Assembly: GCA_018240435.1 (NCBI GenBank)
Contig: JAFEFT010000010.1
Span: 1 to 50,873 of the forward strand
Reading direction: 5' to 3'
Length of the DNA: 50,873 nucleotides
From: Pseudomonadota bacterium
GTDB lineage: Bacteria > Pseudomonadota > Gammaproteobacteria > Xanthomonadales > Xanthomonadaceae
This document shows positions 3,134 to 42,154 of this stretch, piece by piece. Both the position numbers and the translations under genes were made by a program. Position 1 is the first letter of the stretch, and every line of letters starts with the position of its first letter. The notes beneath the pieces are model-generated. The model was not told where the DNA came from and ran no database searches. It worked only from the letters and a program-made list of their open reading frames with translations.

Positions 3134-4750
3134 TCAACGCGCTCCGCAGGTGATGGGATAGCGTCGCTCGCGGCCGAACGCCAGCCGCGAGACTTTCGGC
3201 CCCGGCGCGGCCTGCTGCCGCTTCCACTCGCTGATCCGCAGCAGGCGCAACACGTTATCGACCACCGCTGGATCGAAGCCGGCGGCGATGATTTCCGCCC
3301 GCGACTGCTGCAATTCGATCTCGCGCTGCAAGATGGCATCGAGCACGTCGTACGGCGGCAGCGAATCCTGATCGGTCTGGTTCTCGCGCAGCTCGGCCGA
3401 TGGCGCGCGCGCGATCACCGCGCGCGGGATGACCTCGCCGCCACCCTTCCCGTTGCGCCACTCGCACAACGCGTACACATCGGTCTTGTACAGATCCTTG
3501 ATCGGCGCGTAGCCGCCGCACATGTCGCCGTAAATCGTCGCGTAGCCGACCGCGTATTCGCTCTTGTTGCCGGTGGTCAGCAGCAAGCGGCCGGTCTTGT
3601 TGGCGATCGCCATCAGCAACGCGCCGCGACAGCGCGATTGCAGGTTTTCCTCGGTGACATCGGCCGGCCGGCCGGCGAACAGCGGCGCCAGCGTGCGCAG
3701 GAAACCTTCGAATGGCGATTCGATCGCCACCGTTTCGATGCGAACGCCCAGCGTGACGCACTGCTGCGCGGCCAGATCGTTGCTCAAATCGGAGGTGTAG
3801 CGCGAGGGCAAGCGCACCGCCAGCACGTTGTCGGCACCGAGCGCATCGACCGCCAGCGCCAGCACCAGCGCCGAATCGACGCCACCGGAAAGGCCCAGCA
3901 CGACCTGCGAAAAACCATTCTTGCGCACGTAATCGCGGGTGCCGCGGACGATGGCGCGGTACGCCTGCGAGTGGCGGCCCTCGTCGGTTTCAACAGGCCA
4001 ATGCACGCGCTCGAAGCAGCGCGTCGATGGATCGTGGTCGGCGATCAGCAGGTGGTCGTCGAAGGCGGCGGTCGCTGGATGAATGCGGCCATCGCCATCG
4101 GCCAGGCACGAGCCGCCGTCGAACACCAGACTGTCCTGACCGCCGACGAGGTTGAGGTAGGCGATCGGCAGCCCGGTTTCGGCGACCCGCTGCGCCAGCA
4201 ATGCATCGCGCTGCGCCGCCTTGCCGTGTTCGAACGGCGACGCATTCGGTACCAGCACCAGCTGCGCGCCGGCGCGTGCGGTCGTGGCCAGCGGCTCGGC
4301 GAACCACAGGTCTTCGCAGATCACCATGCCGACCTGCACGCCAGCGACCTCGAACACGCAGGCCGCATCGCCCGGCGCGAAATAACGGCGCTCGTCGAAC
4401 ACGGCGTAATTCGGCAGCTCGCGCTTGCGACAGGTCGTCTCGATGCGCCCCTCGCGCAGCACGCTGGCGGCATTGAACACCACCGCGCCGGCAGCCTCGG
4501 GATGGCCGACCACGGCGACGATGCCGTGCGTCGCGGTGGCGATGCGACCGAGCGCCGCCTCGCACTCGGCGAGGAAATCCGGCCGCAGCACGAGATCTTC
4601 GGGCGGATAACCGGACAACGCCAGTTCGGGAAACAAAATCAGATCGGCGTGATGGACATCACGCGCCTGCGCGATCAGTTCGGCAATGTGCCGCGCGTTC
4701 GCATCGACCGCACCGACTGGAAAGTCGAACTGGGCGAGCGCGATACGCAT
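3134..4750 (-). CDS. nadE: glutamine-dependent NAD+ synthetase
   Basis: NadE catalyses ATP-dependent amidation of nicotinic acid adenine dinucleotide to NAD+, using ammonia from glutamine. The N-terminal nitrilase-like glutaminase domain (about 1-260) shows the catalytic triad: Glu42 in FPELALSGYPP, Lys109 in CRKRELPNY and Cys145 in MVICEDLWF. The C-terminal synthetase domain has the PP-loop SGGVDS at 288-293 and the later TTGNKSEYAVGYATIYGDM motif. The 538-aa length is normal for the two-domain bacterial form. The start is ATG at 4750, giving MRIALAQFDFPVG. Only one base separates it from the stop codon of the DUF559 gene upstream, so the two may be cotranscribed. Confidence 0.95.
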   Translation of the reverse strand: MRIALAQFDFPVGAVDANARHIAELIAQARDVHHADLILFPELALSGYPPEDLVLRPDFLAECEAALGRIATATHGIVAVVGHPEAAGAVVFNAASVLREGRIETTCRKRELPNYAVFDERRYFAPGDAACVFEVAGVQVGMVICEDLWFAEPLATTARAGAQLVLVPNASPFEHGKAAQRDALLAQRVAETGLPIAYLNLVGGQDSLVFDGGSCLADGDGRIHPATAAFDDHLLIADHDPSTRCFERVHWPVETDEGRHSQAYRAIVRGTRDYVRKNGFSQVVLGLSGGVDSALVLALAVDALGADNVLAVRLPSRYTSDLSNDLAAQQCVTLGVRIETVAIESPFEGFLRTLAPLFAGRPADVTEENLQSRCRGALLMAIANKTGRLLLTTGNKSEYAVGYATIYGDMCGGYAPIKDLYKTDVYALCEWRNGKGGGEVIPRAVIARAPSAELRENQTDQDSLPPYDVLDAILQREIELQQSRAEIIAAGFDPAVVDNVLRLLRISEWKRQQAAPGPKVSRLAFGRERRYPITCGAR

Positions 4751-4751
4751 C

Positions 4752-5213
4752 CTACGAAGCTCCTTGCTGGTTTCCTTCCCCCGCTTGCGGGGGAAGGTTG
4801 GGATGGGGGCGAATTTCGATCAAGGCGTTCCAGATCGCTTCGGCTACGGCGTCGGTCTGCAACAGAACTTCATGGTTCCAGAATCGCAGGACGCGGAACC
4901 CCTGCGCGATCAACCAACCATCCCGCTGCGCATCGTGGCGAGATTGCATGTGCTGGCTGCCATCGACCTCGACGATCAGTTTCATTTCGATGCAGACAAA
5001 ATCGACGACATAGGGCCCAAGCGGATGCTGTCTGCGGAATCGACAGCCTTCGATCTGGCGCAGGCGCAGATGTCTCCAGAGCTTGCTCTCGGCATCGGTC
5101 ATGCCAGCACGCAAGCGCCTTGCCAGCGATTTTTTCGCGCCGTCACGCATGAAAGCGCCCCCATCCTGACCTTCCCCCGCAAGCGGGGGAAGGGATACTT
5201 CGACCCGCGCCAT
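4752..5213 (-). CDS. DUF559 (Vsr/PD-(D/E)XK endonuclease-like) protein framed by REP-like repeats
   Basis: This 153-aa protein belongs to the DUF559 family, which is structurally related to very-short-patch-repair and restriction endonucleases. The family signature is complete: LARRLRAGMTDAESKLWRHL, then RFRRQHPLGPYVVDFVC, then KLIVEVDGSQH. The acidic residues in VVDF and VEVDGSQH match a PD-(D/E)XK-type metal site. VLRFWNHEVLLQTDAVAEAI closes the domain. Both ends of the reading frame run through 38-bp palindromic repeats, so the N-terminus (LPPLAGEGQDGG) and C-terminus (PNLPPQAGEG) are translated repeat. The start may instead be ATG at 5150 (MRDGAKKS), just inside the repeat, giving 132 aa. 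Its biochemical role is not established. It sits between nadE and a heptamer array. Confidence 0.85.
   Translation of the reverse strand: MARVEVSLPPLAGEGQDGGAFMRDGAKKSLARRLRAGMTDAESKLWRHLRLRQIEGCRFRRQHPLGPYVVDFVCIEMKLIVEVDGSQHMQSRHDAQRDGWLIAQGFRVLRFWNHEVLLQTDAVAEAIWNALIEIRPHPNLPPQAGEGNQQGAS
4774..4811 (+). repeat. REP-like 38-bp element, left copy
   Basis: A perfect 24-bp palindrome at 4774-4797 (centre CCCCCGCTTGCGGGGG) is followed by the tail TTGGGATGGGGGCG. The reverse complement of the copy at 5156-5193 matches at 36 of 38 positions. Together they form inverted repeats around the DUF559 gene, with the palindromes outward and the tails inward. Confidence 0.9.
5156..5193 (-). repeat. REP-like 38-bp element, right copy
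   Basis: This is the inverted partner of the 4774-4811 element. On the minus strand it has the same 24-bp palindrome followed by TCAGGATGGGGGCG, differing from the left copy only at two tail bases (CA for TT). It overlaps the N-terminal codons of the DUF559 gene if the ATG at 5213 is used. Confidence 0.9.
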
Positions 5214-5223
5214 CGTGGGGGAC

Positions 5224-5363
5224 GACTCCCGACTCCCGATTCCCGCGCCCCTGCTCTCCGTCCCCTGCTCCCTGGTCCCTGCTCCTTGGTCCCTGCTCCT
5301 TGGTCCCTGCTCCTTGGTCCGTAGTCCTTAGTCGCTAGTCCTTGGGCCTTGGTCCTGGGACCT
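5224..5363. repeat. heptamer array A (20 consecutive 7-bp units)
   Basis: The whole interval can be cut into 7-mers without a phase slip. It begins GACTCCC, GACTCCC, GATTCCC, then passes into TGCTCCC, TGGTCCC, TGCTCCT, TGGTCCC units and ends TAGTCCT, TGGGCCT, TGGTCCT. The units drift, but TC at positions 4-5 is kept in most of them. A 14-bp double unit (TGGTCCCTGCTCCT) is repeated exactly in the centre. The array fills the gap between the DUF559 start and the sucD stop. Confidence 0.85.
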
Positions 5364-5366
5364 TGA

Positions 5367-6248
<882 letters not shown>

Positions 6249-42116: not shown

Positions 42117-42154
42117 CGCCCCCATCCCAGCCTTCCCCCGCAGGCGGGGGAAGG
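42117..42154 (-). repeat. REP-like 38-bp element, solo copy
   Basis: This has the same structure as the pair around the DUF559 gene: on the minus strand a 24-bp palindrome with centre CCCCCGCCTGCGGGGG, followed by CTGGGATGGGGGCG. It differs from the left DUF559 copy at two positions. No DUF559 gene is next to it. It lies between the Nudix-ThiE start and heptamer array D. Confidence 0.9.

Follow-up and report, generated by a model that had tools for sequence, protein, structure and literature searches.

A DUF559 nuclease-like gene enclosed by inverted hairpin-plus-tag elements in a Xanthomonadaceae genome: a candidate partner of REP-like dispersed repeats

The stretch of DNA analysed here (the window, 50,873 nucleotides of contig JAFEFT010000010.1 of a member of the Xanthomonadaceae) carries a single DUF559 gene enclosed by two inverted palindromic elements, which raises the question of whether the encoded protein is a bystander of these repeats or the agent that spreads them. 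Each element is built of a perfect hairpin of 24 nt and, after it, a G-rich tag. On the 3' side of the gene (4774-4811, plus strand), the hairpin 4774-4797 is followed by the spacer TT and the tag GGGATGGGGG; on the 5' side (5156-5193, minus strand), the hairpin 5170-5193 is followed by a spacer and a G-rich tag of the type xCAGGATGGGGG. Toward the gene, both elements run from a C-rich arm through a short loop into a G-rich arm, and then through two spacer bases into the tag, with the hairpins outermost and the tags on the gene side. The two are identical at 36 of 38 positions as reverse complements, and the first-pass annotation was right to describe two inverted 38-bp elements that bracket a single DUF559 gene with their palindromes outward. 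The sides differ in the bases before the tag, CAGGAT in the 5' element and YYGGGAT in the 3' element. Folded as single-stranded DNA, 4774-4811 reached -11.7 kcal/mol (z -3.07), a value that none of 200 shuffles equalled.

The DUF559 open frame (4752-5213, minus strand, 153 amino acids), found in the list of open reading frames and by profile match (PF04480/DUF559, about 4821-5135, E 1.9e-41, 140.8 bits with a gathering cut-off of 20.6), spans both elements. The same annotation had let the first and last codons of the gene run into the elements; this stands at the 3' end, where the C-terminal residues PHPNLPPQAGEG are encoded in the element, but probably not at the 5' end, where translation is likely to begin at the ATG at 5150, immediately on the gene side of the 5' element. 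A further copy recognised by its similarity to these elements, at 42117-42154 on the minus strand, matches them at 36 and 34 of 38 positions; it does exist as a solo copy, yet it is no rarity, the exact class A hairpin occurring 55 times in the genome. The conserved neighbours of the gene on its 3' side (3134-4750) and 5' side (5367-6248), both on the minus strand, are presumably nadE and sucD, the names used in the first-pass annotation. Short tandem repeats adjoin the gene at 5225-5350.

Examination of the protein by profile and alignment points to a Vsr/EDxHD type of PD-(D/E)XK fold with the acidic and histidine residues expected of it. Matches to PDB profiles included 3hrl, an endonuclease-like protein (E 2.8e-39), and, over part of the domain, 3r3p, a mobile intron protein which we take to be I-Bth0305I (E 0.0023). 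E21, D50, E61, D63 and H67 are invariant in 53 DUF559 sequences, so the nuclease site looks kept, and an AlphaFold2 model of the window protein reached a pLDDT of 80.9. The accessible part of PMC9403480 also assigns a DUF559 gene to EDxHD.

The genome to which the window belongs (3.18 Mb in 71 contigs) contains three DUF559 genes, 55 exact hairpins of class A and 36 of a second class. To score flanking repeats, the best inverted repeat between the 250-bp flanks of a gene was taken, with a threshold of 14. The window gene is flanked by class A elements and the second gene (L010) by inverted palindromes of class X (score 31). The third (L011), near a contig end, reached only 10, below the threshold; its protein falls in the class M clade, and an M-type tag lies by eye about 210 bp downstream. 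In 21 sources from this genome, 16 of the 22 close element pairs (within 600 bp, the window's pair included) had their tags inward, four had them outward and two were direct, a share that is not a genome-wide figure because these stretches were selected by their element hits. The difference between CAGGAT and YYGGGAT on left and right recurs in ten of the 16 tags-in pairs, the window's among them. Eight copies of a unit whose spacer measures 47 bp (45 in one of them) are spread over six loci. The spacer is conserved in this unit, as are about 25 bp outside, which gives it the look of a MITE as judged from these alignments. Runs of a 7-bp repeat (GGGACTC/GGAACTC/GGGAATC) border most of nine aligned solo units (L012-L031; for example L018, about 980-1100). 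The outer flanks of the window gene showed no significant match to the flanks of solo units (left 14 nt, 0.037; right 14 nt, 0.096; 25 nt, 0.21 and 0.19), and this lack of a significant match counts against a mobilising role for DUF559.

Flanking of DUF559 genes by inverted palindromes is real and general. Among 80 DUF559 loci picked by protein similarity alone, 79 could be scored (L075 was too short), and 60 of these had an inverted pair at or above 14, as against 41 of 3,696 control positions and six of 340 control genes (from a simple ORF caller) in the same loci; the flanking copies that the first-pass annotation had expected beside DUF559 genes elsewhere are thus present. At a score of at least 20, 53 DUF559 loci and seven control positions remained. 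The best DUF559 match of each of 28 genomes sampled across the phylum gave a pair in 16 (controls, 3/255). In another 28 loci, 25 from relatives and the three own genes, a pair was found in 19 (those without: L117, L120, L124, L126, L127, L128, L131, L132 and L011; the weak partial hits L133-L136 were left out of this count). Hairpins of any kind stood on both sides of 78 of 108 DUF559 loci and of 27 of 1,416 control positions, and under a loose rule a hairpin with a C/T-rich 5' arm was found on at least one side in 100 of the 108 and on both in 60.

The pairs extend to other phyla: 36 in Chloroflexota (L074) and 22 to 28.5 in Nitrospirae (L079, L095, L110), with scores below the threshold in Spirochaetae (L094, 13.5), Dadabacteria (L047, 10.5) and Omnitrophota (L052, 10). 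From a plasmid collection with 45 DUF559 records, eleven were examined (E. coli, N. gonorrhoeae, five Azospirillum, three cyanobacteria and one Deinococcus) and eight scored. Pseudanabaena reached 61.5, Picosynechococcus 17 and Deinococcus 56, there with the tags outward. In E. coli, N. gonorrhoeae, two Azospirillum and one Synechocystis (a plasmid copy, 9), elements lie near the DUF559 gene without forming a scoring pair (9 to 10), and these five loci argue against mobilisation by DUF559. On the Synechocystis plasmid (L188, 1390-1836), the gene adjoins one annotated as a BREX pglX methyltransferase, a possible defence context.

Several loci carry further kinds of hairpin upstream of DUF559. 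L068 and L105 (Nitrosomonadales/Gallionella) share a longer one, CGACTAGGCTGGCGTTGTTTGCCAGCCTAGTCG in L105 and less perfect in L068, and the long palindrome TTTTAAAGGCATCGAATTCGATGCCTTTAAAA is common to L046 and L064 (Desulfobacterota). L036, L119 and L124 have a class whose tag itself contains another small hairpin (CCTTCTCCCGC..GCGGGAGAAGGTGCCCGCAGGGCGGATGAGGG and relatives), and elements of this class are repeated in tandem in L090 at about 1959-2900.

Sorting the elements into classes suggests that each goes with a lineage of the protein. Six classes were defined by regular expressions, written after the loci had been viewed; of 136 loci, both sides could be classified in 40 and at least one side in 85, the 3' side being used where the two differed. 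Left and right classes agreed in 39 of the 40 (8.9 expected). On a DUF559 tree of 106 columns with mostly weak forks, the classes of the 85 loci required 21 changes, while 300 shuffles averaged 47 and never needed fewer than 40; the strength of this match, not its existence, is uncertain because the classes are post hoc and the tree is weakly resolved. Class W taken alone did not cluster significantly (64 of 500 shuffles were as low). Element similarity also drops with protein distance (Mantel r -0.20, none of 2,000 permutations as low), and it does so among pairs from different host classes (r -0.12, 4 of 1,000 as low). From these comparisons, element class appears to track the DUF559 clade even across host classes.

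Co-occurrence in whole genomes was examined at two scales. In 40 genomes (the own genome and 39 relatives), the two exact hairpin classes summed to as many as 145 copies where DUF559 gave a strong hit (E 1e-20) and to at most three in the 18 others; at least one exact hairpin was present in 20 of the 22 strong-DUF559 genomes. In a sample of 249 genomes, own included and by inference all Pseudomonadota, the hairpin pattern occurred at least five times in 48 of 71 strong-DUF559 genomes and in 14 of 178 others (P 2e-21, without correction for the tree), the opposite of the equal abundance in DUF559-free genomes that the first-pass annotation had named as fatal to its proposal. Counted by family, 21 of 26 and 7 of 40 were hairpin-rich. 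The effect of DUF559 was seen in genomes with a Y1_Tnp match (25/35 vs 6/103) and in those without (23/36 vs 8/75), again without tree correction, and Y1_Tnp had no detectable effect on hairpin abundance in either DUF559 stratum (P 0.61 and 0.27). A profile search of the own genome found no PF01797 (Y1_Tnp) match at E 0.001, in keeping with the earlier suggestion of a RAYT-like pairing between a PD-(D/E)XK-type protein and its own palindromes without a Y1 transposase. Exceptions go both ways and speak against mobilisation: 23 of the 71 strong-DUF559 genomes had fewer than five hairpins of the pattern used, and the 14 of 178 others with five or more had up to 154. The low-hairpin exceptions include family f54, with many DUF559 genes and, in the three loci inspected, other element sequences.

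How long has the window gene been where it is? The order sucD-DUF559-nadE is found in eleven further loci (three of the window's genus, Lysobacter telluris, [Pseudomonas] boreopolis, a Luteimonas and five others of the same family), and the window gene shares 50 and 51% identity with the other two of its genome, so it looks like a resident member of its family at an old locus. A recent movement of the minimal mobile cassette proposed in the first-pass annotation was accordingly given up, as was an insertion sequence with recent multiple copies of a gene-bearing unit. An inverted pair of at least 14 occurs at four of the 12 nadE-sucD loci, namely the window and its three genus mates. The eight loci without a full pair (L036 at 13.5, L039, L063, L117, L124, L126, L128 and L131) count against DUF559 as mobiliser; in seven of them, a hairpin of the same kind is kept 5' of the gene.

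The build of the window elements, a C-rich arm, a loop, a G-rich arm, a short loop and a second G-rich arm, is that of the BoxC repeats, which are the same as PIT and "triplex motif" (TM_ECO) repeats and follow the pattern CCCTCNCCC-N3-6-GGGNGAGGG-N3-GGGNGAGGG (PMC4666352); class X has this published build too. According to the accessible part of that paper, E. coli MG1655 has 23 BoxC, all five inverted BoxC pairs join second loops of type A with type B, the repeats are absent or variable in close relatives with copy numbers that differ much, and one triplex pattern has 3,610 occurrences in 262 genomes. An intrastrand triplex of TMECO formed in vitro, a result for the E. coli motif and not for the window's class. 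No mobility genes are reported around BoxC there; this part of the text names no partner protein and has no mention of DUF, ycjD or fabI. By the positions given in the paper, four of the five pairs have their tags inward with 16-27 bp between them and the fifth has them outward, and TMECO no. 9 (Table 1) has as its neighbours fabI and the DUF559 gene of E. coli, ycjD. A left/right difference like that of types A and B was also seen by eye, uncounted, around several DUF559 genes. We found no paper linking DUF559 with such repeats in a literature search that covered few subscription journals and bioRxiv preprints, most of both lying outside it.

Comparison of E. coli genomes revealed filled and empty alleles at two BoxC loci. 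At hrpB-mrcB, the K-12 region is covered to at least 80% in 3,521 of 5,426 genomes; three strains without the BoxC pair all have the same empty allele, shorter by about 102 bp, and a fourth retains a single fused hairpin. At fepB-entC, covered to at least 80% in 2,752 of the 5,426, the empty allele is shorter by 186 bp and common to two strains (one from seawater, one O157:H7). The direction, insertion or loss, is inferred from the fact that the empty allele is shared. Two further candidates were discarded: at ygfF-gcvP, the strains without the pair match on the gcvP side only, and at alx-sstT, which has a longer allele in other E. coli strains, strain GN05056 has a deletion fusing the pair instead of an empty site. 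Of the 5,426 genomes, 3,364 have ycjD at 80% cover. One O157:H7 strain has no ycjD after sapF, and BoxC matches are found in O157:H7 strains, at 14 places in one, with the hrpB-mrcB pair kept in a strain other than the one without ycjD; the gene is thus not needed to keep the copies, a further point against mobilisation by DUF559. In three strains without ycjD (L149-L151), no clean ycjD empty site was found; an MFS/RND efflux operon follows sapF there, with fabI beyond the stretch shown. The site after sapF apparently has two alternative gene contents, ycjD in K-12 and the efflux operon.

DUF559 genes and hairpin-plus-tag elements are associated in their flanking, in the match of their classes, in a co-occurrence independent of RAYTs and in paired solo copies, filled and empty alleles being seen as well, and the simplest reading would be that DUF559 spreads the elements. 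We lean towards a resident Vsr-like nuclease that recognises and spreads its cognate elements in a RAYT-like manner. Each nuclease would be paired with its own hairpin-plus-tag class, of the BoxC/PIT/triplex-motif build of REP, whose elements often bracket the gene, their tags pointing inward, much as an insertion sequence is bounded by its ends. Short gene-less inverted tags-in pairs would be non-autonomous derivatives, MITE- or REPIN-like, dispersed in the genome. When replication or repair exposes a folded single strand, either the hairpin or a triplex of the G-rich strand, the nuclease may recognise it and cut at the element, whereupon element pairs would be copied to new sites; recognition, cutting and mobilisation by DUF559 are all parts of this proposed mechanism. 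The gene itself would be inherited vertically, as RAYT genes are.

DUF559 could instead be a Vsr-like repair nuclease and the elements regulatory sites or repair hot spots, with copies produced by repair-linked duplication and no mobiliser at all, an account that seems unlikely to us. Caulobacter cells that lack a methyltransferase mount their SOS response only with VsrA, a DUF559 protein, which its authors read as a mismatch-repair nuclease in the accessible part of PMC12907096, which weighs against a mobiliser; the VsrA-dependent response also fits DNA damage in vivo by a member of the family. Tandem and fused copies (L065/L070, L185, L196) and the several orthologues that retain a single element, on the 5' side, would suit repair as well. 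However, the dispersal of one defined unit over six loci and the filled and empty alleles at two E. coli loci look like insertion, and repair alone would leave the class-specific pairing without a reason.

Alternatively, the elements may be spread by something else, DUF559 being a nuclease gene of the homing type that would cut at element pairs and for that reason repeatedly enter them or be captured there. The resemblance of the family to EDxHD/Vsr-like homing nucleases (3r3p; PMC9403480) favours this idea, which we nevertheless hold to be improbable: the elements are rare in genomes that lack a strong DUF559 hit, which would not be required of a mere target, element class tracks the DUF559 clade even across host classes, and the gene stays at one locus within the family. 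Lastly, that these are ordinary REPs moved by Y1 transposases with DUF559 as a bystander was rejected as very improbable, since Y1_Tnp matches occur in 27 of the 40 genomes but the own genome, with its 55 and 36 exact hairpins, has none, and across the 249 genomes Y1_Tnp had no effect.

The wider form of the preferred reading, for which we see barely better than an even chance, is that DUF559 represents a second, transposase-free mobiliser of REPs that reads a hairpin or triplex and spreads the BoxC class in Proteobacteria, Cyanobacteria, Deinococcus, Nitrospirae and others, with YcjD as the partner of BoxC. This would provide a candidate partner for orphan repeats described since the 1990s, whose spread is unexplained, and a candidate role for a family still named for its "unknown function". 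If true, dispersal of the REP type evolved twice, with unrelated enzymes.

Among known systems, the likeness is to REP/REPIN-RAYT systems, in which a resident gene is bracketed by inverted hairpins, the clade of the protein and the class of the element go together, and inverted solo pairs are dispersed in the genome. Here too, the gene is flanked by inverted hairpin elements that are also found dispersed. In contrast to RAYTs, the enclosed enzyme is predicted to be a Vsr-like PD-(D/E)XK protein and not a Y1 HUH transposase, with no Y1_Tnp in the genome, and each element consists of a G/C-rich hairpin that carries a G-rich tag at its 3' end. The homing EDxHD/Vsr-like endonucleases share a profile likeness over part of the domain (3r3p), but no intron or intein was seen at the window gene, which is bounded by repeats that are dispersed at unrelated sites.
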